Shown here in pieces: positions 1,947 to 61,653 of a stretch of DNA of 64,000 nucleotides; position 1 is the stretch's first letter; each line of letters begins with the position of its first letter. Source of the stretch: Ochromonas danica (taxonomy: Eukaryota; Sar; Chrysophyceae; Chromulinales; Chromulinaceae). The translations under genes and the position numbers were made by a program. The stretch spans positions 186,001 through 250,000 of the forward strand of contig VKHL01000007.1 of the NCBI GenBank assembly GCA_015146655.1. The letters are read 5' to 3'. The notes under the pieces are model-generated. The model was given only the letters and a program-made list of their open reading frames with translations, had not been told where the DNA came from and did no database searches.

Positions 1947-3107
1947 GCTGTTTTGTGTAGTGTGAGCATGACAGTCATTAAACTTTAATCATCATCATCA
2001 GTGCGCTTATCATGTAATATGATATTTTAATCACTTTGTTCTCGTAGTTGATGGTATTAAAGATGTTTTTTTCGCATAATTCCATGGAATGGTCCCGTAG
2101 CCCAGAATGCAGATCCCAGACATCTGGAAGTCTGGATGGATGCAGAATTCGGAATTCCTGAAGAAGGTTCTGCTCTGCGTTGCGGGCGGTGGGCCTTCCG
2201 CCGTGCAGCTGCAAACAGAACAACAAAGACGACAACATTGACATTCAACGATCATATCCCATCCTGAAGAAGAAAGATGCTAGCTCGATCTCTTGCCAAG
2301 ACTGTTACCAGATCAGTCAGACCTGCTTTGTATTCCACCTCTAGCATTAGCCAGGTAAAGAGAAGTTTCCTAGTTGGTTGATTGATGTTCTCTAGCAGTG
2401 AAAGATTCTCACCTTCTTTTCCGTTTTGATGGATGATGATATAGGCTGTAGTTCTGGAGGATCTGCCCTATCCCTATGACTCTTTGGAGCCTCACATCGG
2501 TCAGAAGACTCTCCACATCCACCACGACAAGCACCATGCTCGTTACGTCACCACTGCCAATGATCTGATCAAGGGTACTGAGCTGGAAAATGACGATGTG
2601 GTGACTCTCATCCGCAAGGCTCATCAGGCGAAGAATACAGCATTGTTCAACAACGCTGGTCAGTCCTTCAACCACGACTTCTACTGGAAGTCGATGAAGC
2701 CTAAGGGTGGTGGAAAGCCCACTGGCAAGCTGGCTGAGCTGATTGAGAAGGACTTGGGTGGTTATGACAAGTTCCGCCAGGAGTTCGTGAAGGCTGCCAC
2801 GACCGCATTCGGATCTGGTTGGGCCTGGTTGGTGTGGACTCCCAAGGGTTTGAAGGTGACTCAGACCATTGGTGCCGGCAATCCTTGGACTGAGGAAGGT
2901 CAAGTGCCATTGTTGACCATCGATGTTTGGGAGCATGCATACTATTTGGATTATCAGAACCTCCGTCCCAACTACATTGACACCTTTTTGGACCACTTGG
3001 TCAACTGGGATGCAGTGGCTTCCCGCCTCCCAAAATAAGCTGTTTTGTGTAGTGTGAGCATGACAGTCATTAAACTTTAATCATCATCATCAGTGCGCTT
3101 ATCATGT
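1359..3107 (+). repeat. Tandem 657-bp duplication of SOD exon 2 and 3' flank
   Basis: Positions 1359-2015 recur at 2451-3107 (offset 1092). The plus-frame protein and two different antisense open frames are identical in both copies, so silent sites match too, and the 3' UTR matches down to the last catgt. Identity starts seven codon positions into exon 2 and stops abruptly about 69 bases after the stop codon. This indicates very recent duplication or ongoing gene conversion confined to the catalytic exon. Confidence 0.93.
2277..3038 (+). CDS. Fe superoxide dismutase, mitochondrial-type leader (copy 2)
   Basis: Second SOD gene directly downstream of copy 1 on the same strand. Exons 2277-2354 and 2445-3038 (phase 0) give 223 aa. 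Exon 1 encodes MLARSLAKTVTRSVRPALYS plus TSSISQ: Arg/Ser-rich, free of acidic residues and amphipathic, a typical mitochondrial presequence. Exon 2 starts AVVLED where copy 1 has GVVLED and is otherwise identical, with the same four metal ligands. Introns and first exons of the two copies are unrelated in sequence. The pair therefore appears to send one catalytic domain to two organelles. Mitochondrial location is inferred from the leader alone. Confidence 0.92.
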
Positions 3108-3193: not shown

Positions 3194-4450
3194 TTATGCT
3201 TTGTGCTGGGCAAGGCGTCTTTCAATCTCTTCAATATCACCTTTAGATCCCAGTAAAGTAGAGACATGATCATGCAAAGCTTCGATTTTCTCATCAAGGA
3301 TTCTTCCGCTTCCTGTACTGGCTTTGCCGCCAGCCTGCTCTACCAAGAAAGCCATTGGCGCCACCTCTGGCAAATAGCGCAGTTTCCCTTTGGGGGCACT
3401 CTTGCTATCACCAGGATATCCAAATACTCCACCATATAGCAATGTTCTGTGTACGTCGCCTACCATGCTTCCAATATAGCGAGAGGTATAAGTCCGCCCC
3501 GTCTCACCTTTGCCTGTCTTAATATCTTGGACATAGTCTGCAAGACCTGGCGGCCACCACGGGGCACGAGCTTCATTCAAAGAATAGATTTGACCTCGTT
3601 CTGGAATCTTTACATTGGGGTGCGTGAGGATAAACTCTCCAATAAAGGGATCAAGTGTAAAGCCATGCACACCCTCGCCTAATGACAGCATGAGAACTGT
3701 GCTGGAGGAGTACATGCAATAGCCTGCACCTATCATATGCTTACTAGGTTGAAGATTACGAACAAGCTTGGCTTGACTTTCTGTACTAACTTTCTCTCCA
3801 TAGTCCACCAAACACTCTTCTTCCTCTCGGAAGATGCCAAAGATAGTTCCCGTGACAATCCCCACGTCAATATTTAATGCCCCATCTAAAGGATCAAAGA
3901 CTGATATGTACTTGCTATTCCAAGCCTCGTCAATGAGAATAGGATTTGGCTCATTTTCAAAGGGAACAATTCCTACTTTGCCTGTGAAGCGCAATGAATT
4001 CTTGAGAACCTTCATGGCCACATTGTACATCGCATTGGATGGTTTGTCGCGGAATGCTTCTTCAAAGTCTTCTTGATAACCAGTAAGATCAGACATACCG
4101 GAGCGTGATAACATATTCGCAATCGTCTTGCAAGCTATCTGGATACTCTCTATCAATGACTCAAGGTCAGCATGGTCTGGGTCATGCCGTGTTGCCTCGA
4201 TCATGAAGCGTGAGAGGGTCATGACATCTTCATTGGAGACAGAAGAGGAGGATAAGGAGGTAGAATGAAGCACATGAGCTCTCTCCGGGCGAATGCTTCC
4301 TCTGCCCTCACTGCCCACTGTGACCCTCGTAGTAGCACTGGAGGGCAACAAGCTGCATGGTTGAAGGTGAGTAAAAGGTCGAAAAGAATATCCTATAGTT
4401 CCTAGGACTTCTAGCAGTAGAAATCCAAAAGTAACAAGAAAATAATTCAT
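3194..4450 (-). CDS. Fructose-1,6-bisphosphatase, plastid-type leader
   Basis: Hydrolyses fructose 1,6-bisphosphate to fructose 6-phosphate (Calvin cycle or gluconeogenesis). Intronless, 418 aa from the ATG at 4450; the frame stays open upstream, but starting here gives a clean signal peptide, MNYFLVTFGFLLLEVLGTIG then YS, followed by FRPF, so Phe again follows the predicted cleavage site. The family signature appears as FDPLDGALNIDVG (usual FDPLDGSSNID), followed by GTIFGIF; the C-terminal part has YIGSMVGDVHRTLLYGG, GKLRYLPEVAPMAFL and EQAGG. The Ala-Leu replacement of the Ser-Ser in the signature is noteworthy. Paired regulatory cysteines of the land-plant redox loop are not obvious; single Cys residues occur in EEEECLV and GAGYCMY. 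Tail-to-tail with SOD copy 2. Confidence 0.92.
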   Translation of the reverse strand: MNYFLVTFGFLLLEVLGTIGYSFRPFTHLQPCSLLPSSATTRVTVGSEGRGSIRPERAHVLHSTSLSSSSVSNEDVMTLSRFMIEATRHDPDHADLESLIESIQIACKTIANMLSRSGMSDLTGYQEDFEEAFRDKPSNAMYNVAMKVLKNSLRFTGKVGIVPFENEPNPILIDEAWNSKYISVFDPLDGALNIDVGIVTGTIFGIFREEEECLVDYGEKVSTESQAKLVRNLQPSKHMIGAGYCMYSSSTVLMLSLGEGVHGFTLDPFIGEFILTHPNVKIPERGQIYSLNEARAPWWPPGLADYVQDIKTGKGETGRTYTSRYIGSMVGDVHRTLLYGGVFGYPGDSKSAPKGKLRYLPEVAPMAFLVEQAGGKASTGSGRILDEKIEALHDHVSTLLGSKGDIEEIERRLAQHKA

Positions 4451-4666
4451 ACCCTTTAACTGATGAGATGGTGAAGCTCTAACCACTTCAGCACAGCAAA
4501 CAGGATCTCCTTCACCTTCTCTGTTAGTTTCACCAGGGGGAACCACCACGCAAAACAATAATAATTCATATTCTGTGTGAGAATTGGTTTTGGTTTGATG
4601 AAATTGGTTTGATGCAGACCGGAGAGCATTCTAACAGGTCCTCTGCCTAAGCCTGAAGAAGATTAG

Positions 4667-5011
4667 TTTGTCATCTATCGTCCTCCTTTACTATCCCATT
4701 GCTTAGAGACTCGCTTTTTTCAAGAGAAGGATGGAGTATGGAGATCTTCTTATTTCTATCACAAGCTGGAGACCATCCAGTCACAACTCGCACCCACTGA
4801 GCGATATCGTGCAGAACTTGCCACTTCTGGAAAACAGATTCGACTCATCCAAAGACTCGAGTTGCGCATCCATCGAGTTGGCTGCGAAAATGCTCGAGGA
4901 GCATTTATTAGACGTGTGACCCTTGCCCGAACAAATGTTGAAATTGCAGGGCTTGCTGACCTCTCAGCAACTCTTAGGACAGTCGTCTTCCCCCACGCCT
5001 TTCAAGCCATT
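4667..5011 (+). pseudogene. Open frame without start, partly inside hairpin 1
   Basis: A frame of about 114 codons without stop or ATG enters the left arm of hairpin 1. It reads like real protein (for example SSYFYHKLETIQSQLAPTER and RVTLARTNVEIAGLADLSAT). It may be an orphan exon or a gene fragment carried by the inverted repeat. The family is not recognised, and the opposite reading direction cannot be excluded. Confidence 0.3.
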
Positions 5012-5300
5012 TAAGGCAATATTTCCACCCTCGCCCAAGCCTTTGATTCCAAAGCATATAAGCTTGTAAGGCAATATTTCGGTGCTTATATGCTTTGGAA
5101 TAATCAAAGGCTTGGGCGAGGGTGGAAATATTGCCTTAAATGTCTTGAAAGGCGTGGGGAAGACGACTGTCCTAAGAGTTGCTGAGAGGTCAGCAAGCCC
5201 TGCAATTTCAACATTTGTTAGGGTCAGCAGTTTTGCTAACTCAGTCGTTGTACATCGTACCACGTCTAATAAATGCTGCTCGAACATTTTCGCAGCCAAC
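4877..5300. repeat. Long inverted repeat (hairpin 1)
   Basis: Left arm 4877-5063 and right arm 5084-5300 are reverse complements around a 20-nt loop. Similarity is high throughout, with a few substitutions, 1-3 nt indels and one extra segment of about 30 nt in the right arm (around 5225-5257). The left arm continues an open plus frame without ATG (4667-5011). The right arm reads GVGKTTVL, an incomplete Walker-A look-alike. No neighbouring gene shares this sequence. Possible sources are a fold-back element or an inverted duplication of a gene fragment; the transcript would fold into a rod of about 190 bp. Confidence 0.85.
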
Positions 5301-9219: not shown

Positions 9220-9749
9220 CCTCTCTATCAAGGCTATCTGAAGTCTTCCTTGTTTTCTTTCTCGCGATTGTTGAAATGGTCGATGCGGATTGGTGAGTGG
9301 GGAGGAAATATCGGAATCCACGGTGGTTCCATGGAATACTCAAATCTGTAAGTTTGAAATGGCGATGAATTAGACTAGAGTAGAACCACCATGTGAGGAC
9401 TCCCATAGGCTACAAGAGCAAATGAGGCTTATTGTTTCTTTCCTAAGCGGGTTTCCTTTTCAAAGGCTCGAGTGCACGCACATCTATATGGGGTAGACTT
9501 GAGAGTTAGACGATCTCAGCTAGACAATGCAGGGGAGCTCTGCAAAGGAGGAGGTTATTGTACAAGTGTTGGTCTATACGATATTGGCTGGTTTGTCTGG
9601 TTAAGTCAGAACCAGTCTGAAGGCAAAGAGATGGACAGGAATGGTAGACACGAGGAATGGGGCTGTTGACAACTTTACAACTTACGAGTAGTGAGTCTAC
9701 ATGAGATTAAAGGCCACATTATCATGCCAATACTCATCCTTCCTTAATT
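9220..9749. other. Intergenic region upstream of UBA2
   Basis: Promoter and leader of UBA2 (minus strand), then the 3' flank of the RidA gene. A plus-strand frame at 9472-9669 shows no family resemblance and is taken as chance. No repeat or RNA gene seen. Confidence 0.5.
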
Positions 9750-10250
9750 TCATTTCCTAATTCTAATAATGGCTTCAATCTCCACGGGCACTCCGAGGGG
9801 CAGCACATTGACACCCACAGCGGAGCGTGCATGTCTGCCCACATCGTGGCCGAAGACTTCCCCAATTAGATCCGAGCAACCATTCATCACCAAAGGCTGA
9901 GAAGTGAAGTCCTTTGTGCTATTGACGAAGCCAGTGAGCTTGATCACCTTCTCGACTTTGTCCAGATCTCCTCCACAAGCAGTCTGGAGAGACGCCAAAA
10001 GCTGCAGGGCAGCGAGTCGAGCAGCATATTGACCTTCCTCGATAGTCAACTCTTCGCCTAGACGACCCTTAATCAAGGTGCCGTCAATGAGCTGAGGAAG
10101 ATGCCCCGAGAGATAGACCAGGTTGCCATCCATGACGAAATTGGTATAATTTCCCTTTGGGGATGGCGCTTGTTGAGGAAGAGCATAACCAAGTTCTTTC
10201 ACTCTCGCCTCCACATGAATAGCACGACGAATGATCTGAAAAGATCGCAT
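9750..10250 (-). CDS. RidA/YjgF/UK114-family protein
   Basis: Intronless, 166 aa. RidA proteins hydrolyse reactive enamine/imine intermediates released by PLP enzymes. After an N-terminal extension of about 25 residues, possibly organellar (MRSFQIIRRAIHVEA, Arg-containing and free of acids at first), it shows the family pattern: LGYALPQQAPSPKGNYTNFV, YLSGHLP, and the C-terminal RSAVGVNVLPLGVPVEIEAI with the Arg that canonical members use to bind the carboxylate. The subgroup resembles the longer RidA-like clade rather than E. coli RidA itself. Head-to-head with the serum amyloid A-like gene, ATG to ATG 276 bp. Confidence 0.9.
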   Translation of the reverse strand: MRSFQIIRRAIHVEARVKELGYALPQQAPSPKGNYTNFVMDGNLVYLSGHLPQLIDGTLIKGRLGEELTIEEGQYAARLAALQLLASLQTACGGDLDKVEKVIKLTGFVNSTKDFTSQPLVMNGCSDLIGEVFGHDVGRHARSAVGVNVLPLGVPVEIEAIIRIRK

Positions 10251-10526
10251 GGTCAGTTCAACTTGATGGGCTTTGGATCAACCGAGTTGGGGTTCTTGGG
10301 GTTCTTGTTGGTCCTGAGAAAGATTCTCCACGCAACACAACAATAATAGCTTTTCGTTTTCGTAAACGAAATCGAAAACCTTTCCCAGAACCTTCTTCTG
10401 GAAGGCTGGGAGAAATCCCCTCAACTCTCAAAGTTCTGATTCCATCATTCTCAGTCATCATTAAGCTCACCATAATTATATTATTACAATCTCTTGAAGT
10501 TTTCCTGTCATTATTTCATTGTAAAC

Positions 10527-10892
10527 ATGTTCTTTATGTTAATCTTCCTCATCATGCTCCACCTCGTAACTTGTCAGGAGAAGAATAAACAAGGTCCATG
10601 GGATCAAGTTTCCGGTGCAGCTGGAGATTTTCTTAGAAATTACAAGGATATGCATGAAGCAAATACTATTGGAGCTGATAAATATTTTCATGCAAAGGCC
10701 AATTATGAAGCTGCGCAACGTGGAGGGTTTGGGAAATTCACTGCCCAAGTATTTAGTTATGGAAGAGAAGCAACTGATGTTTTGCGTGGCAAATCAAGTG
10801 ATTGGAAAGAAGATATGAGAGCAAATAGTCATGGATGGAATGGAGGTGATCCTAATGTCTATCGTCCCAGAGGACTACCAGATAGATATTGA
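10527..10892 (+). CDS. Serum amyloid A family protein (secreted)
   Basis: Intronless, 121 aa from the ATG at 10527, almost exactly the length of vertebrate SAA precursors (122 aa). It starts with a signal peptide (MFFMLIFLIMLHLVTC) and continues with an SAA domain over its whole remaining length: EANTIGADKYFHAKANYEAA corresponds to human [20 protein letters not shown], and the end DPNVYRPRGLPDRY to DPNHFRPAGLPEKY. The family signature around the NY[ED]A..RG segment is kept. SAA in animals is a secreted, lipid- and retinol-binding four-helix acute-phase protein; its role in a unicellular alga is unknown. The gene is AT-richer than its neighbours and lacks introns. Homology is secure from sequence; origin by transfer is only a possibility. 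Confidence 0.92.
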   Translation: MFFMLIFLIMLHLVTCQEKNKQGPWDQVSGAAGDFLRNYKDMHEANTIGADKYFHAKANYEAAQRGGFGKFTAQVFSYGREATDVLRGKSSDWKEDMRANSHGWNGGDPNVYRPRGLPDRY

Positions 10893-11080
10893 AAACATAC
10901 ACTAATCATTATATACATATATCACACATCACACATCACGAATCAATTTGATTTTAGAATCACACTACCCCTTCACCCACTCACTCGCTAAAACTCTGTG
11001 ATATGATGTAAATTAATTTATTTAACTATATCAACCTATACAACCATCCCATAGCTATTTTTCATTCTCAGGAGAACATT

Positions 11081-11236
11081 TCATTTTCGTTTTGGGTGAC
11101 TTGATTCATTGAAAGAGTTGTTCCAGTCTCTAGATAGCGTTGCAATATCATGTCCTAACCTCATAGTAAAGTAGCGGTCCTCCAAGAGGCTAATCATCAA
11201 CATTGACCATGCCAAGTAAAACAGGGAAGTTCCCAT
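11081..11236 (-). CDS. Possible 51-aa single-span membrane microprotein
   Basis: The frame MGTSLFYLAWSMLMISLLED continues for 31 residues to a Lys/Arg-rich end, SSHPKRK. It has one hydrophobic helix and a soluble tail, resembling small organellar membrane subunits, though I recognise no family. A possible splice acceptor (atatag at about 11243) just upstream would allow a longer protein with an exon I could not find. It lies between the 3' ends of the SAA-like gene and GCP3. Support is only the protein-like composition. Confidence 0.3.
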   Translation of the reverse strand: MGTSLFYLAWSMLMISLLEDRYFTMRLGHDIATLSRDWNNSFNESSHPKRK

Positions 11237-11306
11237 AACCAAGTTGCTATATTATGTCAGTTAATAGAAATAGAAGAAGTCGAACTATACAATGCCTTGA
11301 AAGTGG

Positions 11307-14300
11307 CTAACTCAAAGATAACCGAGTGGGCTGCATGTCCATATTGTTCGCAGACCAAGCCCTATCAACCCCACCACCACTACCACCATTGTTCTTAAAA
11401 CCCTCCGACTCTTGGAGGTTTCTCGGAGTGGAGGTAATACCCACACCAGCACCCTTCGCCTTCTGCAGTGTATGATAATCGTTGAAGTCCAGGCGGAAGG
11501 TGAGGTAGCGCAGGATCTCACCCGACTTCTCTCCTTCCTCCTTCAACATTGTCATCAACACATCAAATTGAGCACTGTACTCCTTGACTGTCTCGTCAAT
11601 ACGACTGACAAGATGCAAGGGAATAGTCTCTTGCTGAATTGTCAGAGCCAGTTCTCGCTGACGATTAGTCTGTCCCTGCGCGGCTGAGTTGCCAGCAAAG
11701 GCTCCAGACGCCAACTTCTTCCTGGCAATAGCCGCGAGGGTGTCAGCCACGAGGCTCTCTTCCAGGCTACAGAAACGTAGAATAAGTTGCATAACTTGCT
11801 GAATTTGCAACTGCAAGGCTTCATGAGTAGGAGAGAGCAAGGCCTTGTCGAGAATCTCGTCAAGATATCTGTCATGCGCAAGGATGAGATCATCAATACT
11901 GCGAGACTTGTCCAGGTCTTCTTTCAATCGTACCCAAGCCGTCTCCAAGACTTCAAACATGAGGAATTCTGAGAGATTAATGATGACATGCATCATACAG
12001 GATCGATTGAGATTGCATCGATGTAAGACTCGCTTGACATCGTTGACATGACTTCTGGGCAAGAGACTTTGTGAGGAATGAGACTCTCTGTCGATCATAT
12101 GAGACAAGTTGACCAGATCTTTCCATGCATTTGAGAGAGACCACTCTACTCGCTTCAATCTCCACAGCATATGGAAAGCAATGCGATACTTGGCCATGGC
12201 TTGAGGGTGCACAATAGAATTCAAAGGAATGGCGATCTGATAGTCTAAGGAGAAGATCTCCCACCCAGTGTCACCAACATTGGCCTCGAGAAGACGAATA
12301 TTCACATGATGTAAGATCCATTCTTCCTCGTATTGTGCATTGCTCGCTCGCAGTGAGGCTTCCAAGATGGAGAGCAGGTTATGCTTGAAGAGCACATTGC
12401 TGCGCTTCTTCAGCTCTGGGCCGATATTATCAATCAAGCAATTGATAAAGTCTCCCTGACCCAGCAACATGAACTTCTTCAGTGCTTCAAGATGGTTATA
12501 GAGATGGAAATCCTCTCTCAAAAGCTGTAGAAGCTGTTGATCGATATGTTGGGACAAGACGAGGATATGCTGGGAGAGTGTGAGTGCCTGATGGTGTCGA
12601 AGGTTGTGCAGAGCTTCTTCAATTTGCTGAGAGGTGACTGTGGTGAAGATGTTGGCAAACACATCCTCTTCTGGAGTACTTGGTGATGAGGACTGACCGT
12701 TGTTGGGTACAGCCACTGCTGTGGTATTGTTGTTATTGTTGTTGTTAATATCTTCGGTGACATTATCTGAGGGAGGAGAAGGTCCTTTATTCTCTTCCGA
12801 GGCAGAGGAGAAGACCTTGACATCCTCGTCATCAATCACTTGACCATAGAGGCCGAGGTGCTTGCCCTTGTTGATCATACGGTAGCTCTTCCTCATTCCT
12901 CCAGTCGTGAAGTTACGATTTCCTTTAGTCAAATGCTTCTGTCCTGGTGGCAGACGAGATAAGCAAAGCTTGATAAAGTTAATGCTCTTCCCAATCTTGA
13001 GAATCTTCTCTGCCAGGTCACTGGGAAGGAAGGAAGGAATATGAGTGGATCTTAAGCGATAGGTTTCCTTCCACATATTCGACATATTTGATGCTGAGTT
13101 GTTAAGCAAGATAAAGAATTCTTGTTGAGGATCAGACAACTCGCCTTCTAGCATCCATCTGCTGAGGTAGGTATAGAGAGGTACACAGACATTGTCCATG
13201 ACTCTCTGCACTACCTTGGCCACCTGGTGATCTCCATGTCGGCAGTGTGCATAGATACGTGAGATTAATGCTCCTCCTGTGAGACCAATAGCGCCGTCTA
13301 CTAGGCGAGCCAGTACAATCATCCGCTCTGTTGGCTCAGCCAGCCAAGCCTTGAGGCGGAGTAAGGTGAGTCCATAGTTACCATCCGTGGAGGCTTCGTG
13401 TGCTCCATCAGATTGAGTTTCCTTAGCTTCAAAATCTTCATCATAAGTGAGTTTACGCATCTCCTGGGCGAGATTCTCTTGTTGTCCAGAGAAAGTGGGG
13501 TATCGTCCCAATTCCTGTTCGATCACCGCGACTAGACGATAGTAATCATGCAGCTCCTCCTAACAGACCACATGCTCTCTGTTAAGTCAATCGTTAGGAA
13601 CAAACAGAACAGCGGAGGAGGAAGAGCAACCTGTAAAGCGAAGCCAAAGGCTTGAACAATCAAGCCTTTGCTATCAGGCCCACCGCCTTGGAAGACTGTC
13701 TTGAGATAGGCTGAGACCTTATTGTACAGCCAGCCAAGCTCACAGATACAGAGTACAATATCTCTAGCTGGTAGAGGCAACTGGAGCATGGGGTCGACCA
13801 CGTAGCTCTCTGTGCGACTGTCATACTTGATATGCTTGCCTGTCACTCCCTGCTCACCATAGAGAACACAAATGAGATATCTCATACAAGAAGAAGAAGA
13901 ACACAGAACACAGAATACGTCACCTGGAGCACATAGACGATATCCAAGAGCAGCTTGCGCTCCACCTCGACACTAATCCACAAGTCGTTGACAGAGAGAA
14001 CAGGAGGAGCAGGTGATTCTTCTAACTTCTTCTCTGGAGGGATGGAGATCTCTTTCTTAGCTAATGGTAATCCAAAGGCTGTGGCAGTGGCAGTGGCAGG
14101 AGGGGCGGAACTAGTGGTGGTGGGGGGTGGAGGGACTGGCCCCCCACAAACTGAAGAAGACTGAAAGATCTTCTTCTTCACGGGCTCCTTCACTTCAAGT
14201 GAAGGAATGCTCTGAGAGAGTTCTCTCTCCGCCTGGACCAGGTTCTGGAAGACAGGTCTTGTCTTCTCATAGAAGCTGATGGGCATGAGAAAGGTCAAGA

Positions 14301-24639: not shown

Positions 24640-25401
24640 GCTAGTCTACTCTACTTTACTGCAGTAGTGTTATTATCCGGTGCTATCCTAGTCTATTGAA
24701 TCTTTCAGTCCATCCCCTGTGAAGAGTTATTATTACTGAGGGGGAACGTCGTTTTTGTGTTATACTCTGGTATTAGTATTATTAGTATTAGCAGTGGTGG
24801 TATTAGTAGTAGACTATTGCTGCAGTTATTATTGTTGAGTTAGGTGCTCTACTGTGCTCTTCTGTGCTACTACTGTACAACTCACTTTGGTTGGTCTTCT
24901 GCAGTTCTCAGTATGGAAGTCAAGTTACCGTTGTGTTGACGATCACAGTGTATCCTTCTCTACCACGCACGCCCTCTTTGTGGTGGTAGTTTAGTAGGAA
25001 GTGTCAAGCAGCGTCTGCTACATCTGGTCTGATAGTAGTGTCTGTGTGCTATTTCTCCTTATGACGACCTTCTTGGGTCATCCTTTACCTTTGATATGTA
25101 TAGAATCATTCTTGGACCGGAATTTGTTTATTATCCTTTATATTATATTATATTGCAAATGATGCTGTGTGTCATGATCATGTCATGTTTACTTAACTTA
25201 AGAAGATAGCTTAACTTAAGAAGATACGAAGAAAGGTTGATGTTGTTCATTTCATTTCTCTGCTGATTGTGAAAGATTGTGAAAGCTTCCCTCCCTGTAC
25301 CCCCTACTGCTGACTTTCTGTGACTGTCACTGTGTGTGTCATCTATTCAGTCTCTGCTACTGTACAGTGTTGAAGTGTTGACGTGTGGCTACTCTCTCTC
25401 T
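24640..25401. other. Intergenic region with a duplicated TTAACTTAA element
   Basis: 3' flank of MsrA and promoter of the kinase-phosphatase gene. At 25192-25227 an 18-base unit (cttaacttaagaagatag/c) stands twice in tandem, so the TTAACTTAA 9-mer occurs at 25193 and 25211. Simple att/agt repeats lie near 24770-24810. The open frame of the next gene runs back to 25336 without ATG. Confidence 0.5.
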
Positions 25402-28400
25402 ATGAGAAGAATGATGACATCATGGAGGATGACAGGACGAGGAAGTAGTACAACCTTCTCCTTCTTATTCTTATTCTGTGTGATCTTCTTCTTCTTCTCT
25501 CGCTCATCCAATAGAGTGGTGAGGTGTTCTTCTGAGAGGAAGAATCACGAAGAAGAAGAAGAAGAAGAAGAAGACAGTCTCACTAGTCTCTCCTCTTTGA
25601 TAACACCTTCCTATCAAGTGGGAGACATTATTCAACACTATCAACTAGCAGAGCATATCCAGACTCTAGGAGAGGAAGCCTTCTATGAGATGCAGTACTA
25701 CTGGACAACGCATCGTGTCCAACTGCTTCCTAATGGAAAGGATTCCTCCTCCTCCCCCTCCTCCTCTACCCACAGTAGTGATGGCAGTGCAGAAGAAGAG
25801 CTAGTTCTGCAACAAGACGGTCATCATCGTGATGGTGATGGTCCCTGCTTTGGAGGAGAATTCTGTCTGGATGAGAACTTCTTCCATGGAGGCCATGGCG
25901 ATGTTTGGAGAGCTCATAAGATGGCCGAGAAGACCTCTGCAGGAGGAGGAGGTACAAACACTTTCATCTTGAAGCGCATGAAGACAAAACATCGCCCTGA
26001 TATCAAACGCTGTGCTCTAAGAGAAATCTATTTTGGCCAGCTGCTGAGAGGGCAGTCGAATTACCCGCAATTCATCACTCACTTTATAAAGGATGAAGAC
26101 TATTGGCTGGTCTTCAAAGACGAAGGGACTTGTTTGCAGGCCTTCCTCTATGCCTATCATGAAGGTCTTCTCAGACCTTCCTCATTCTGGCATAGAATGA
26201 GAACTACTCCACGAGGAGCGATCTCTATGAAAGGGATTATCTATCAAGTCATTCAGAATGTAGCTGATCTACATCGTCAAAATGTCATTCATCGAGATAT
26301 CAAGCCATCGAATATCCTCATCAATGGAGAAGGTGTGACTCCTCGTGTTATTCTTGCTGACTTCTCTTCAGCTATTCATAGTAATGTTGACCTCAAGGAA
26401 CATTATGGCGATAGAGGACCTACTGTAGATGAAGCGACCTTTCTGTATGCTCCCCCAGAGGTACTCTTGACTATTGATGAATCCTACTTCACAGAAGACG
26501 AACCACCCACTTCATCTGCACCTTACTTTGCAATGAGACCTCAGTCATATGACATTTGGAGTATTGGTGTACTCTTCTTAGAGCTTATTCTAGGCACAGC
26601 AGATGTATTTTCAGTGGATCAACGAACATCGGCTATGATTACACAGCGGCTAGGCAGAAATGACCTCAAGAGACGAGCTTTGTTCATGGCCTCTCTTGCT
26701 GACTACTGTATCTACAAACGACCATTGCTTTCCTCTGAAGATGCTAGTGGGAAAGCAGGGACGAGTGCTAAGAATCGCAAGCGTAGCGAGGAATTATCTT
26801 CCTTGGGGTCAGACCTCATTGGGATGGCATTTCCTCTCCAGTCAGACAACCAAAGAGATGTCAATGCTTTTGATAGCCTGCTGCAGAGTCCTGTCAAACT
26901 CAAAACTTGTTCTGTGAATGAATTTGGTCAGGCTATTCTTCGAAGAGATCCTCTTGGCAAGGGCTTCAATGATAAATGCGGATTAGATTTACTTTATAGA
27001 CTTCTTCACTTCGATCCCATGAAGCGAATTAACCTCTCTGAAGCATTGATGCACCCCTATTTCAGAGGACCTTATCAGAACGCTCGCGATTGTTCTGACC
27101 ATGCAACAATACCCGAGAGAAGAGAACCACACGACGAGCCCGTTCCACCTCTTGTACAAACTCCTAGCACTGTCATCGATTTAGTAGAGGTGAAGGATCT
27201 GTATCCATTGTATCTATTCTCTCATCACTTCAATAAGACAGCAGAACCAGCAGGACGTGGTCTTGAGAGGATTGACGAGGAGGCAAGCAGCTCAACCAGT
27301 AAAATAGATGAACTTATCCAAGGCATTGATTTCATGTGTCCCAAATGCAAGAGGAAGTTTTCAGGTGATTGGTTTGCTTGCCAAAGACATTTGAAGAGTC
27401 GCCAACATGGCAATTATTGTCTCTATCTCCTTCATAACCAACCCAATGGTCTCTCCCTTTCGGCATCTCAGATAGGCTATACTAGTATGGGAGAAGAGTC
27501 CGATAAAGCTGTCAGTAAGCTACATCGTCGTGGTACATGCAAGCGAGTGGCTGATAAACATCATCTCGACATGATGAGAGTCAGCCAGAATCGGTTACTC
27601 CTGGAGTCTCTTCTTCCTTCCTGTTTGTCTGAGCACTCTTTGCTGTTTAATGACGATCGAATAGGCTGGTGTGATTTGAAAGGAAGAAGAGCCTATGTTG
27701 AGGATATGCATGCTCTATACTTTGGAGACAGCTACATCTTCACAGGTGTATTTGATGGTCATTTTGGAAGCCTTGCTGCTCGCTACAGTGCGGAGAATAT
27801 TTATGCAAACTTTCTTGAGATTCTCTCTAATCGACTTTACAATCTATCTACATCCACAATAGAGCAGTTTGATTTGGGGACATCCAGTCAAGCCAGTTTA
27901 GATCAACAAATCGAAATTCTGCGGGATGCTAATGGAGGAGACGGAATGGAGTGGCTACCTCATCTTCTCGCATCACCAAATCAAGCCTTTTTATCGTTGT
28001 CCGTTTGCCCAGAAGCTAATAGCACAGAGCCGCCTTTGTTCAACAATGACTGGGACATCATGAATTGCTTTTCTATTGATTCTATTAACTCTGAGAAATC
28101 CCGCATTCAACAGAATCTATCGGCTGAAGATCTGCTGGATTCTATTCGTGGTGCATTTCTCTTAACGAATCAGCAACTGCAGAAACGATATAGTGAAAGC
28201 AGTGCTGACTCTACGCTGGCATACATGAGTGGCAGTACAGCTTCCATAGCTTTGCTCCTCCCTGATAACCTTCTGCTTCTGGCCAGTGTGGGAGATTCAA
28301 GAATGGTCACCTGCTGCTATTTCTCTTTTGACAGCACAAAATGGAGTTATTCTGCGGCTCAACTCAGTATTGATCACACTCCCAAACAAATCAAAGAGTA

Positions 28401-28935
28401 TAACCGAGTTGTTGAACGCGGAGGATTTATCGAAGGCGATCCTCCAAGAGTTAATGGTAAATTGGCTGTTACTCGCTCATTGGGCGATCCCCTTTGGGCT
28501 GACATGCTATCTGCTGAGCCAGATGTCCTTTTGTTGTCTTCAAATGTCTCGTATTTGAGTGAAGAATATGTTTCCCTTTCTAACGCGGTGGCCGATGGCC
28601 CTTGTTCTGAGTATTTCCTTCTGCTTCAGCAGCTGTCTGGCGTAGAGAATGTTAGTGTGAATGTACTCCATCCATTGTTCCTTGTCATCGGATCAGACGG
28701 TTTATGGGATGTATTCGCTAATGATGAGCTAGTAGATCTTGTTTGTCTGGATCTCATCAACGCTCTGTGTATGACAGACAAGGATGAAGAGAGCCATGGC
28801 TCGAGATCTCCGCCTTATCCAAGTGATATTTATCAACTTGTTTCGAGACATCTAGCGCAAGAGGCTCTGCTACGAGGAAGTTCTGACAACATTGGCGTCT
28901 CTGTTCTAAATCTTCGATCTACTGCACCACCTTGA
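25402..28935 (+). CDS. Protein kinase - zinc finger - PP2C phosphatase fusion
   Basis: One exon, 1177 aa from the first ATG. Residues about 17-32 are a hydrophobic segment (FSFLFLFCVIFFFF), probably a signal anchor. An acidic linker leads to a kinase domain (about 160-555): G-loop HGGHGDVWRAH, Lys in FILKRM, catalytic VIHRDIKPSNILI, DFS in place of DFG (ILADFSSAI) and APPEVLL. At about 646-672 a C2H2-type finger (CPKCKRKF...CQRHLKSRQH) links to a PP2C domain (about 755-1175) with all metal aspartates visible: YVEDMHA, VFDGHFG, SVGDSR, IGSDGLWD and SSDNIG. Kinase plus PP2C in one chain is known from plants; a zinc finger between them is not one I recall. Opposing activities in one chain suggest a self-limiting switch. 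Both domains look catalytically competent apart from DFS. Confidence 0.92.
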   Translation: MRRMMTSWRMTGRGSSTTFSFLFLFCVIFFFFSRSSNRVVRCSSERKNHEEEEEEEEDSLTSLSSLITPSYQVGDIIQHYQLAEHIQTLGEEAFYEMQYYWTTHRVQLLPNGKDSSSSPSSSTHSSDGSAEEELVLQQDGHHRDGDGPCFGGEFCLDENFFHGGHGDVWRAHKMAEKTSAGGGGTNTFILKRMKTKHRPDIKRCALREIYFGQLLRGQSNYPQFITHFIKDEDYWLVFKDEGTCLQAFLYAYHEGLLRPSSFWHRMRTTPRGAISMKGIIYQVIQNVADLHRQNVIHRDIKPSNILINGEGVTPRVILADFSSAIHSNVDLKEHYGDRGPTVDEATFLYAPPEVLLTIDESYFTEDEPPTSSAPYFAMRPQSYDIWSIGVLFLELILGTADVFSVDQRTSAMITQRLGRNDLKRRALFMASLADYCIYKRPLLSSEDASGKAGTSAKNRKRSEELSSLGSDLIGMAFPLQSDNQRDVNAFDSLLQSPVKLKTCSVNEFGQAILRRDPLGKGFNDKCGLDLLYRLLHFDPMKRINLSEALMHPYFRGPYQNARDCSDHATIPERREPHDEPVPPLVQTPSTVIDLVEVKDLYPLYLFSHHFNKTAEPAGRGLERIDEEASSSTSKIDELIQGIDFMCPKCKRKFSGDWFACQRHLKSRQHGNYCLYLLHNQPNGLSLSASQIGYTSMGEESDKAVSKLHRRGTCKRVADKHHLDMMRVSQNRLLLESLLPSCLSEHSLLFNDDRIGWCDLKGRRAYVEDMHALYFGDSYIFTGVFDGHFGSLAARYSAENIYANFLEILSNRLYNLSTSTIEQFDLGTSSQASLDQQIEILRDANGGDGMEWLPHLLASPNQAFLSLSVCPEANSTEPPLFNNDWDIMNCFSIDSINSEKSRIQQNLSAEDLLDSIRGAFLLTNQQLQKRYSESSADSTLAYMSGSTASIALLLPDNLLLLASVGDSRMVTCCYFSFDSTKWSYSAAQLSIDHTPKQIKEYNRVVERGGFIEGDPPRVNGKLAVTRSLGDPLWADMLSAEPDVLLLSSNVSYLSEEYVSLSNAVADGPCSEYFLLLQQLSGVENVSVNVLHPLFLVIGSDGLWDVFANDELVDLVCLDLINALCMTDKDEESHGSRSPPYPSDIYQLVSRHLAQEALLRGSSDNIGVSVLNLRSTAPP

Positions 28936-40744: not shown

Positions 40745-41534
40745 CACTGAGGACCAGATTAGCTATGGTTCCTAACAATGACTTGTTGACTATTGACAGC
40801 TTGTCTAGACTAAGTGATGAGCTGAGTGCTCTTAGGAACTCTTCAAGATCGCAACAAAGAACTGAAAAACGAAGAAAAGCTTGGAGTGCTCTTTAAGGAA
40901 TTACATAAATCTTTAAGGAATTCCTTTTTATTGCTTATTTATAAATTTATACCAACCCACACACCCCAGAAATGTGATCCCATTTTAAGATGAATTGGCA
41001 TTGGAAAGACTACTCTTCTATCAACCTTCTTTGTATTGGTGTCGGTGCTCAATACCCACATGTTGCCTGTCTACTAGTCCAATGACCGAAAGAGTGGAGA
41101 TGATGACGATCCTTTGAGTAGTCCAGAGGGTAGGATCGTCATCATCTCCACCCTTTCGGTCATTGGACTAGTAGACGGGCAACACATGGGTATTGAGCAC
41201 CGACACCAATACAAAGAAGGTTGATAGAAGAGTAGTCTTTCCAATGCCATTCGGACCTTCTCACAAAAGGATAAAGTACTTCTTTTCATAGTACCACCTC
41301 TCTTAATAAAGACAGGTTTGATCAAGGTAGTCCTTTATCAACAACTAAACACAAATGGGATCACATATCTCGGGGTGGCGAGTTGATAGGGGAGTATTTC
41401 ATGTTGTGTCTAATAAGTAACAGCAGGCAATAGCGCCGAATAGGCAATATTTATGTTATAAATAAAAACTTGACAACTTAGTCAACAGTGTACAATAGTC
41501 TAGCTTCAGATAGATAATATAGTGTATAAGATAA
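40745..41534. other. Intergenic region carrying hairpin 2
   Basis: Upstream flank of the MDR gene, hairpin 2 (40962-41377) and 3' flank of the FMN reductase gene. No protein gene is supported; the frames present are segments of the hairpin. Confidence 0.6.
40962..41377. repeat. Near-perfect inverted repeat (hairpin 2)
   Basis: Core arms 40997-41113 and 41132-41248 are 117 nt each, complementary without indels and with only about four mismatches, around an 18-nt loop. Outer arms (40962-40984 and 41353-41377, caccccagaaatgtgatcccattt and its complement) are separated from the core by 12 nt on the left and about 104 nt on the right. The core encodes GIGKTTLLSTFF on the left. Read outward from the right arm on the minus strand it is preceded by EGPN, giving a full Walker A (GPNGIGKTT) after YEKKYFILL, so the arms are an inverted fragment of a P-loop NTPase gene that is no longer open. 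Shared outer ends suggest a single fold-back unit. Confidence 0.92.
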
Positions 41535-58822: not shown

Positions 58823-59414
58823 ACTAACTCACACTACTTGACACTTCACACGTGACACAGTCTAGTCTGCTAGTCTATTGCTCTGCTAGGGTTGTAGTGT
58901 ATAGCGTGTATATGTAGTGTGTGTAGAGTGTAGTGTAGAGTGTAGTGTAGTGTGTGTATAGTGTGTGTGTTAAAGTTAGTGTTTAGTGTAGTTAGTGTCT
59001 CTATGGCGAGGAGAGAGATAAGACCTACTAGTCTTCTCTTATTAACTGTATTATTACTACTATTACTACTACCACAGGGTGTACTATACTAGACTACACT
59101 ATAGTACTGTACAGGCTGATCCGGCCAACGGTCACAGAAAACGCTTTTTTGCACTTTTCCCCCCCAAATCGTTGTCGATTGAAAACTCTAAATACACCAT
59201 TAGAAAGCCCTTTTTCGCGCTTCAAGAATCTATAGACTTCGATGGGATCCGAATCCTCGACGTTCCCTTCTGCAGACTACATCCCCGAAGGCTTCCTTGA
59301 AGAGAAATGATGCAAAATCCATTTTTGAACTTTATAAAAAACCCTTTTTCTCAACAACCAGAAGGTGTTAGGGAAGCGAGCGCCTATTTTTAGATTCCTT
59401 GTTAAATAAGGAAT
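58823..59414. other. Repeat-rich flank and left end of the transposon
   Basis: gtgtagtgtag-type arrays at about 58895-58970. From about 59129 sequence belongs to the DDE element: a degenerate terminal inverted repeat and an untranslated leader up to the ATG at 59415. Confidence 0.5.
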
Positions 59415-61653
59415 ATGGATGTTAACTTAGGTTTGCAGGAAACCATGCCTACGGGGTGGATAAATGGAAATGAGTCTTCCCCGCCTGGTGGTAATGGGGA
59501 CATCCCATCAAATACTCACGACAAAGTCGTCCATGCACAAGTTCTGCTCATGAAAAGGAGTAGAAGAAGCAACAAAACTGATTGGGGTATACGCGTTAGC
59601 TTCTACCTGCGAGGCAACAAGAAGAAGAAAGAGAGGCAGGTAGTCACTACCAGTGGTTATGCTACTGAGGAGGCTGCAAAAGCCGACCTAAACGCCTTCG
59701 TCAGCCTAGTGGATCGATTTGGTCATGGATATAAGGCAAAATGGAAGAAGTATCGAGTGTCAAGGGACTCATCAAGTATAAGTGCACCTCCACCAGTGGC
59801 TCCTCCTCCTCCTCCTCCTCCTCCACCCATCAATACTGGTGGGCAGCTTGACCCACCAGTGCCGAAGAAGCGACTATTGAACGCTTCGCAGCTTAAGCAA
59901 TGCAAAAGACTTCGGCGAACTCTGGCTGCTGTTGATAAGGAAAGGTTGAGTCGGCTTGAGTATATAGAGTTATTCGTATCGAGGTCGAATGTTGATGATA
60001 ATAGCGAGAGATTGGCAAGACTACGAAACAGTCTGCAGGAGATTACCCATGCAGCAATATCTAAGTTGAATAAGCTCACGGCTAATAAGTCGCTGCTTCA
60101 TTTCCAGATCAAGATAAGAAGTAGACTGCGAGATGTGTATGCAAAGCTGACAGAGATAGATAGTGCGGTAACTTCAATGACCCTGTCAATGCAAAAGAGC
60201 GAAATTAAAGGCTATCTGTTTGTATCTGACAAATCTTGTGGTGACAAAGAGTACGAACTCAGTGAAGCGCCAAAGCCAAAGTATTGCAGACACTCCTCCG
60301 ATGTGTGCAAGTGCAATAGCATTGCGTATTTTATCGGCCAGGATGAAGCATGTTTCAAGGAACACGCTTCTTCTAAAAATGCCTGGAGAGTTGACACAAA
60401 ACAACAGCTGAGGCCAAAATCAGATGGAAGAACGGAAATGATAAGCGCTTTTCAAGACGCTTACCGAGGATTTGGCTTCGCTATGACGGAGGAGGAACTA
60501 AGTGTGGTAAACCAGTTTCGAGCTAAAAAAGCAGTTGAAAGTGGCACACCAGCGCCACCGAGCTTACAGACATCACCTGGTCTCGTGTTCTTTACTCCAG
60601 GCACCAACAACGACGGCTGGTGGGACTACCAGCTGTTCGCCAATCAGGTCCACGATCTTATGGACTGTTTCGACTGCTTGTATCCTGACAAGCAAATGGT
60701 CCTGTTTGTGGATCACAGTTCAGGTCAGTTTACTACTAATATTAGAAAGATGACGACCATTGAATAAGACTACTTACCTTTCTGCAATAGGACATCTAAA
60801 AAAGAAGGACAACGGCCTGGATGTTAGCGCCATGAACATGTTTTACGGCGGGAAGCAGCGGAGCACAATGTGCCCGAGTACCATCGTCGCAGGCTGCCTT
60901 GGTAATAACAACCCAATTCTGCGCGAAGGAGATGTGCAGAACATGACCTTCCAGCCCGGTGAAAAGATCCTTGTCTGGAAAGGAATGGAAAACGGGGCGA
61001 GGGAGCCTCCTGAGAAAGACCTAGTGGATAGCAATAATAAGGTCGTCGTAGAGGGATATATGGGAAAGCCCAAAGGAATATACCAAGTTCTTGCTGAGCG
61101 AGGTCTTTTCATAAAGGGCATGCGAGGAGGCAATGCACGCGCCGCTCTTGACAGATGCACGGACTTTGCGACAGAGGTGACTGCATTAGAAGAACTCGTC
61201 AACAGCAGGGGTCATCTGTTGCTAATTTCGCCGAAATGTCATCCAGAACTCGCGGGCTGCGGGATTGAATATTCGTGGGGGAAGGCCAAGATGTTCTATC
61301 GGCGGGATAACTCTTCCACAGCAAGGAAAGAGTTCAGAACAAAGATAGAGAAAGCTTTGAAGATCGAGAAACAGACTGATCCGCTCCATATAACTCGAGT
61401 TTGGAAGTTTGAGCGGAGGACGAGAGACTATTGTAGGGCGTACAAGTCTTTGGAAGAGTCTGTACAAGGCAAGACAGTCATAGGGGAGGAAATCACTTAT
61501 GATATATTAGAAAACCAGAGGAAAAAATATAAAACTCACCGCAATATGCAATATAGGTGAGATTGAGAATAAATTCATCAATTTGTGTGACTAAGCAAAA
61601 ATAATTGTTTTGCGAAACGGTGGTGGGTCCCGGAAAAGGTGTTTTGGGCACTG
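59129..61653 (+). mobile_element. DNA transposon with DDE transposase
   Basis: Ends are tentative: 59129-59148 (cggtcacagaaaacgctttt) is about 65% complementary to 61634-61653 (aaaaggtgttttgggcactg), a weak terminal inverted repeat. Between them lies one transposase gene and little else (about 2.5 kb in total). A target-site duplication could not be identified. Superfamily unassigned; the transposase has an IS630/Tc1-mariner-like layout. Confidence 0.6.
59415..61560 (+). CDS. DDE transposase, apparently whole, one intron
   Basis: Exons 59415-60723 and 60791-61560, joined as DHSSG/HLKKKDNGLD to give 692 aa. The N-terminal half has a basic AP2-like or zinc-type DNA-binding region (MKRSRRSNKTDWGIRVSFYL) and a helical Lys/Arg-rich middle with a Pro8 run. 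The catalytic part has VLFVDHSSG (second Asp), MNMFYGGKQ, GKPKGIYQVLAERGLF and CHPELAGCGIEYSWGKAK with the terminal Glu, the plan of IS630/Tc1-like transposases; the first Asp may lie in NNDGWWDYQL. No premature stop is needed, so the element could be young. The intron GT-AG assignment makes the two frames continuous. Confidence 0.85.

Follow-up and report, generated by a model that had tools for sequence, protein, structure and literature searches.

A complete, intronless open reading frame in the 64-kb window (the whole stretch of DNA that was analysed) encodes a protein of the serum amyloid A (SAA) family. The frame begins with an ATG, runs for 121 codons and is preceded by an in-frame stop at 10473. 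It lies between a RidA/YjgF family gene and a gene for a component of the gamma-tubulin complex (Table 1).

Table 1. Features of the SAA locus and of the encoded protein, by position in the window
Feature	Position	Strand	Basis and remarks
RidA/YjgF family gene	9750..10250	-	Pfam; context
Divergent intergenic region, RidA/SAA	10251..10526	.	GC 0.399; probable promoter region, inferred
SAA gene	10527..10892	+	121 aa, intronless, stop included; Pfam, PDB, model
Putative signal peptide MFFMLIFLIMLHLVTC	10527..10574	+	Hydropathy; cleavage site by eye
H55, predicted catalytic His, helix 2 (DKYFH)	10689..10691	+	Invariant in the structure alignment (A2); position from the available part of PMC12419801, mapped here
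E81, predicted catalytic Glu, helix 3 (GRE)	10767..10769	+	Invariant in A2; mapped here
D96, predicted catalytic Asp, helix 4 (EDMRANSHG)	10812..10814	+	At least 90% conserved in A2; mapped here
7-residue loop NGGDPNV, helix 4 to YRPRGL	10839..10859	+	Length as in mammalian SAA
Gamma-tubulin complex component, GCP type, C-terminal exon	11307..13526	-	Pfam GCP_N + GCP_C; context

The locus and its host

The RidA gene stands head to head with the SAA gene across 276 bp, as the initial annotation of this DNA had described, and the GCP exon is convergent with the SAA gene. The same annotation called the second neighbour GCP3; a gene of the GCP type does adjoin, while the name is that annotation's own and Pfam gives the domains GCP_N and GCP_C. 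The contig is eukaryotic, and a UBA2-like gene on it (Pfam ThiF, UAE_UbL and UBA_E1_SCCH) is interrupted on the minus strand, from 9111 to 8977, by a 135-bp intron of the GT-AG type. The host is probably an alga, as the initial annotation had supposed, with a secondary plastid, and is likely to be photosynthetic, since the FBPase encoded at 3197-4630 (minus strand) is of the plastid type and has a signal-like presequence. This FBPase matches the PDB chains 5iz1, 1spi, 1d9q and 1dbz at 308-319 bits, with the next match at 231, and we take these four chains to be plant plastid FBPases (from moss, spinach and pea). Its N-terminus appears to consist of a signal-peptide-like stretch followed by FRP, which presumably resembles the targeting motif of secondary red plastids.

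A self-match search of the 64-kb window found no second SAA copy, the only significant match being the SAA gene itself. No tRNA genes or Rfam families were detected in the window, and a search of 9600-11500 for an insertion scar returned a single inverted pair, 19 nt long and imperfect, with no direct repeats. Other features of the window include two tandem Fe-superoxide dismutase genes (1353-2015 and 2444-3107) that are 99.7% identical over 664 bp and represent either a recent duplication or an assembly duplicate. Near-perfect palindromes at 4926-5223 (about 300 bp) and 40992-41252 (about 260 bp) are approximately 91% self-complementary and MITE-like. A single open reading frame of 1203 aa occupies 25324-28935; in its product a PP2C phosphatase domain comes after a protein kinase domain, a fusion that was judged to be unusual. 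Two overlapping open reading frames at 59406-61560 had no Pfam match at 0.001 and may, as a guess, be the parts of a single mobile-element gene that a frameshift has divided.

Family assignment and predicted fold

SAA is among the best-known markers of inflammation in mammals, and its original function is debated. The SAA homologue reported in the initial annotation is confirmed by Pfam, by PDB sequence matches and by the modelled fold. In the profile search that the annotation had proposed, PF00277 (SAA) matched the protein at 101.4 bits, well above the cut-off of 30.8 (E 4.1e-29), with algal residues 28-121 aligned to positions 7-102 of the 102 in the profile. An E value of this size rules out a chance reading frame. 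Eight PDB sequences matched at E values up to 1; every one carries the name serum amyloid A or amyloid protein A, and the top chain has an E value of 1.4e-22. The two family motifs quoted in the annotation, EANTIGADKYFHAKANYEAA and DPNVYRPRGLPDRY, are both present, and the gene is intronless as described, consisting of one uninterrupted frame. The hydrophobic N-terminus, MFFMLIFLIMLHLVTC (GRAVY 2.57), looks like a signal peptide when judged by eye, and the mature part of the protein contains no cysteine.

The AlphaFold2 model of the protein was built with alignment A2, which holds 46 sequences (the algal protein and 45 of the 61 bacterial and viral loci described below), and has a pLDDT of 88.5 and a pTM of 0.79. 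Confidence is lower for the N-terminal helix (residues 2-13), and block means of pLDDT are 86-97 from residue 31 onward. The remaining helices are modelled at residues 24-45, 50-63, 67-86, 93-104 and 109-112. The protein is thus predicted to adopt the four-helix fold of SAA with its C-terminal tail, and helix 109-112 would be the short fifth helix seen in SAA of the Lipocone SAW clade. The model overlays crystal structures of SAA at 0.9-2.3 A. Seven of 30 Foldseek matches in the PDB had E values below 0.001, and all seven are mouse SAA3 or human SAA1 (TM to target 0.85-0.92), with mouse SAA3 bound to retinol among the top matches.

In the available part of PMC12419801 (2025), SAA is assigned to the Lipocone superfamily, whose members are predicted to be enzymes acting on lipid head groups, with an inferred His/Glu/Asp site. 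The set characteristic of the SAW clade, a His in H2, a Glu in H3 and an Asp in H4, is kept in the algal protein as H55, E81 and D96. The sNxxGR motif of H4 is not matched; the algal ANSHGW retains the N and the G, and the R is replaced by W104. Tryptophan occupies this position in two bacterial relatives as well (L034 and L040), both of which are placed in SAA by Pfam or tblastn, and the available part of PMC12419801 terms conservation of the motif 'pronounced', which is to say not absolute. The change from the usual R to W104 speaks mildly against an unchanged active site.

Bacterial and viral relatives and the origin of the algal gene

The statement in the initial annotation that SAA is known mainly from vertebrates and echinoderms did not hold, as a scan of genome contigs from 84,980 bacterial and archaeal species found at least 56 bacterial SAA loci, a lower bound since the scan used two strict peptide patterns. 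Bacterial SAA has also appeared in print. The available part of PMC12419801 derives animal SAA from bacterial SAA, dates the acquisition before the split of Cnidaria and places eukaryotic SAA in Metazoa; the words 'stramenopile' and 'algae' have no occurrence in its main text. The tree of Zamocky and Ferianc (2023), as it is cited in the available part of PMC13163884, contains clades of bacteria and of animals and none of algae. A paper on algal chloroplast expression (PMC9025058) mentions SAA once in the part available. No report of a native SAA from an alga or stramenopile was found among the titles and abstract openings listed, which included few subscription papers, and an algal SAA may possibly have been deposited.

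The 56 prokaryotic loci and five viral loci from a first scan of IMG/VR make up a set of 61 (L001 and onward). Among the 286 genomes of one order (that of genome G001, inferred to be Gastranaerophilales), 64 gave a PF00277 match at E 0.001, and 56 were above the curated cut-off. The corresponding counts for five other groups, each of which includes the genome that defined the group, were 3/387 (one over the cut-off), 1/68, 2/321, 2/345 and 2/345 (one over the cut-off). When the 61 loci were sorted by rough pattern, near-identical copies included, 19 were RHS-like, 13 had the phage head protein motif HPNCxC and the other 29 had neither. In a Pfam test of proteins from ten relatives, L035 consisted of 11 RHS repeats and SAA, L018 and L046 were also of the RHS type, and PG_binding_1 was fused to SAA in L014 and L059 just above the cut-off. 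The SAA domain follows a peptidoglycan-binding domain in L014, L058 (by eye) and L059, which are on alphaproteobacterial or viral contigs.

Five of nine bacterial or viral SAA proteins (L003, L004, L021, L025 and L042) match head-and-packaging families in PHROGs, with E values reaching 4e-11, and a Phage_Mu_F match of L007 in Pfam fell below the cut-off. The protein of the viral contig L057 is identical to that of L003. In these cases SAA forms the C-terminal end of proteins resembling phage minor head or head morphogenesis proteins, mostly in Gastranaerophilales-type bacteria and in one viral contig, and it is possible that SAA serves as an effector tip borne by the phage head.

Mobile elements were also considered as sources of the algal gene. 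Two scans of IMG/VR gave six contigs with SAA in total (L097, L099 and L100 being the contigs of L057, L059 and L060), with a long loop wherever it was measured. No match was returned by the IMG/VR scan with the algal protein alone as query or by a DNA pattern for the short C-terminal tail. A plasmid or phage source was rejected, as neither the plasmid records (72,556) nor the phage records (50,697) gave a tblastn match at E 0.1. A virus as carrier was likewise rejected, given that a viral fold search with the algal protein had no match at E 0.001 and that IMG/VR copies are long-looped where measured.

Residue identity and gap pattern conflict with regard to the origin of the algal gene. The highest identity is to the bacterial copies L001 and L002 (57%), with mammalian SAA at 49-53%. 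The algal protein and three mammalian SAAs have exactly seven residues between sNxxG(R/W) and (Y/F)RPxGLP, with DPN in common, and the corresponding loop has at least 14 residues in all 63 measurable copies among 68 from bacteria and viruses. The loop count comprised 72 rows (the alga, three mammals and 68 bacterial or viral copies after removal of identical ones); lengths were obtained by script for 61 of the 68, L014 (17) and L094 (17, by eye) were added, and L011, L012, L040, L047 and L056 have no measurable loop. The short loop as a criterion for animal-type SAA is that of the present analysis rather than of PMC12419801, and it represents animals by three mammalian PDB sequences.

A tree had been proposed in the initial annotation, and those constructed here with bacterial relatives and three mammals leave the algal copy unplaced, so that gene transfer and an ancient origin are both viable as that annotation had held. 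The larger tree contained 50 of the 61 loci, omitting L011, L012, L022-L024, L040, L047, L050, L051, L056 and L057 (duplicates, fragments or frame trouble), and the smaller tree contained 36 after removal of 14 further long, near-duplicate or odd rows. The alga fell beside a group of four that includes L034 in the larger tree (support 69/88) and beside L034 alone in the smaller tree (77/88). In AU tests covering about 95 residues and three mammals only, a grouping of the alga with mammals had p values of 0.343 (larger tree) and 0.338 (smaller tree), the constraint costing 2.7 and 3.8 log units, respectively. Grouping of the alga with the Gastranaerophilales-type group (p 0.305) or with both mammals and the L034 group (p 0.211) was, like the grouping with mammals, not rejected.

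That the gene was transferred directly from a bacterium carrying a toxin-type SAA, in an event distinct from the one that gave rise to animal SAA, has nearly an even chance of being correct. Both trees place the alga near L034, an RHS-like SAA tip from a Verrucomicrobia MAG that shares EDM(R/K)ANxHGW and YRPRGL with the alga, and the algal gene has no intron. However, tree support is under the starred level, identity between the alga and L034 is 44% overall, the cysteines of L034 are absent from the algal copy, and direct transfer implies that the loop was shortened to seven residues twice. Alternatively, alga and animal SAA could form one group, through transfer between eukaryotes or a single SAA ancestor shared among eukaryotes, a possibility that we hold at well short of even odds. 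The seven-residue loop with GxDPNx(Y/F)RPxGLP, shared by the alga and mammals and set against at least 14 residues in bacterial and viral copies, argues for such a group, and the AU tests do not reject it, but the free trees favor L034 as the neighbor, identity is higher to L001 and L002, the algal gene is intronless, and the animals are represented by only three mammals.

The SAA gene is AT-richer than its surroundings, as had been remarked, with a GC of 0.402 and a GC3 of 0.273. Of the 85 chunks of host genes used for comparison (about 120 codons each, from 14 host stretches, one of which held one stop codon), one has a GC3 as low. Its flanks are likewise AT-rich (GC 0.399 and 0.353), and its codon choice, scored with host codon frequencies, is at or above that of 89% of the host chunks. 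The composition reads as that of a resident gene and is weak evidence either way. An assembly artefact or contamination, in which animal or bacterial DNA was joined to the contig, is very improbable: a GC3 at the lower end of the host range, and a trimer composition that puts the 1-kb SAA unit among the outer 8% of the window, would fit it, but eukaryotic genes lie within 0.3-0.5 kb on both sides, the window has no N runs, and the gene combines host-like codon preference with the lack of an RHS shell and of an intron. The flanking eukaryotic genes and the codon preference make contamination unlikely, in line with the argument from context in the initial annotation.

Proposed function and comparison with known systems

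The reading preferred here, with a probability of about 0.5, is that algal SAA is a secreted, lipid-active and probably antibacterial effector, with secretion, catalysis and target all inferred. A nuclear SAA gene would give rise to a protein with a signal peptide that is secreted or routed to the phagosome or vacuole. The protein would fold into the four-helix cone of SAA and other Lipocone proteins with a short fifth helix and an intact His-Glu-Asp set, and this set would act on phosphate-linked lipid head groups, as the available part of PMC12419801 predicts. Algal SAA might then bind lipids of bacterial membranes or isoprenoid carrier lipids, whose head groups would be cut or sequestered, and its role could be in defence or in the killing of prey. 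The gene would have arrived by transfer, either directly or via another eukaryote, with a toxin-type SAA of bacteria as its ultimate source.

Conservation in the 46 aligned sequences of the three residues of the set is consistent with such an effector, as are the toxin-like settings of the bacterial relatives (RHS shells, PG_binding_1 fusions and phage-head-like proteins). Mammalian SAA is antibacterial according to the available part of PMC11817213, and sea cucumber SAA is induced by LPS according to that of PMC4264123, which cites earlier work. Against the effector stand the replacement of R by W104, the 29 of 61 relatives' loci that lack a clear toxin pattern, the status of SAA catalysis as a prediction of PMC12419801 in the part available, and the possibility that the role is lipid binding alone.

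The main rival is a carrier, secreted or vesicular, that transports hydrophobic small molecules (a retinoid, carotenoid or lipid) and performs no catalysis; we consider this reading unlikely. Algae are rich in carotenoids, which counts for a carrier, and retinol-bound mouse SAA3 is among the best structural matches of the algal model. In the available part of PMC4129439, retinol binding is put at 145-259 nM for the mouse and human proteins, and a hydrophobic pocket is described in mouse SAA3. However, the retinol pocket belongs to an oligomer, and a pure carrier would have no need of the H/E/D set that is kept in the alga, an argument that is weak because mammalian SAA keeps the set yet binds retinol. 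The probabilities attached to function and to origin answer separate questions and do not sum to 1.

Combining the effector with the question of origin, we suggest tentatively, at somewhat less than even odds, that defence of the SAA type was also acquired outside animals. Either a bacterial SAA of toxin type was domesticated by the alga on its own and became a secreted antibacterial protein, or animal and algal SAA share a eukaryotic ancestor with a seven-residue loop. If so, a picture confined to Metazoa would understate the age of SAA or its mobility among eukaryotes. With algal SAA, the lineages that have taken immune parts from bacterial toxins would include a eukaryote that is not an animal. 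A stand-alone, signal-bearing SAA whose predicted catalytic residues are intact, in a single-celled phototroph, could serve as a simple test system, without blood, lipoproteins or cytokines, for a lipid-active antibacterial root of SAA.

Algal SAA resembles members of the Lipocone SAW clade (Wnt, Min-Wnt and SAA) in the predicted four-helix core, the short fifth helix and the polar set on H2, H3 and H4, and differs from them in the loss of the R of sNxxGR. With animal SAA (human SAA1 and mouse SAA3; PF00277, Met-SAA) it shares a full-length domain, a signal-peptide-like start, a predicted fold within 0.9-2.3 A, the seven-residue C-terminal loop, the H/E/D set and, in the mature part as in three mammalian domain sequences, the absence of cysteine. 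It departs from animal SAA in having KAN for RGN after DKYFHA, DFLRNY for DMWRAY and W for R in sNxxGR, as well as in its intronless gene and non-animal host. With bacterial SAA (prok-SAA of PMC12419801) it has in common the signature ANTIGADKYFHxKAN, the H/E/D set and an identity of up to 57% (L001 and L002). Unlike the algal protein, which stands alone with its own putative signal peptide, many bacterial copies are the C-terminal ends of RHS-like (19/61) or phage-head-like (13/61) proteins, and they often have cysteines and a loop of at least 14 residues. What is new, then, is SAA in an unexpected host, likely an alga; the family itself is already known, including from bacteria.
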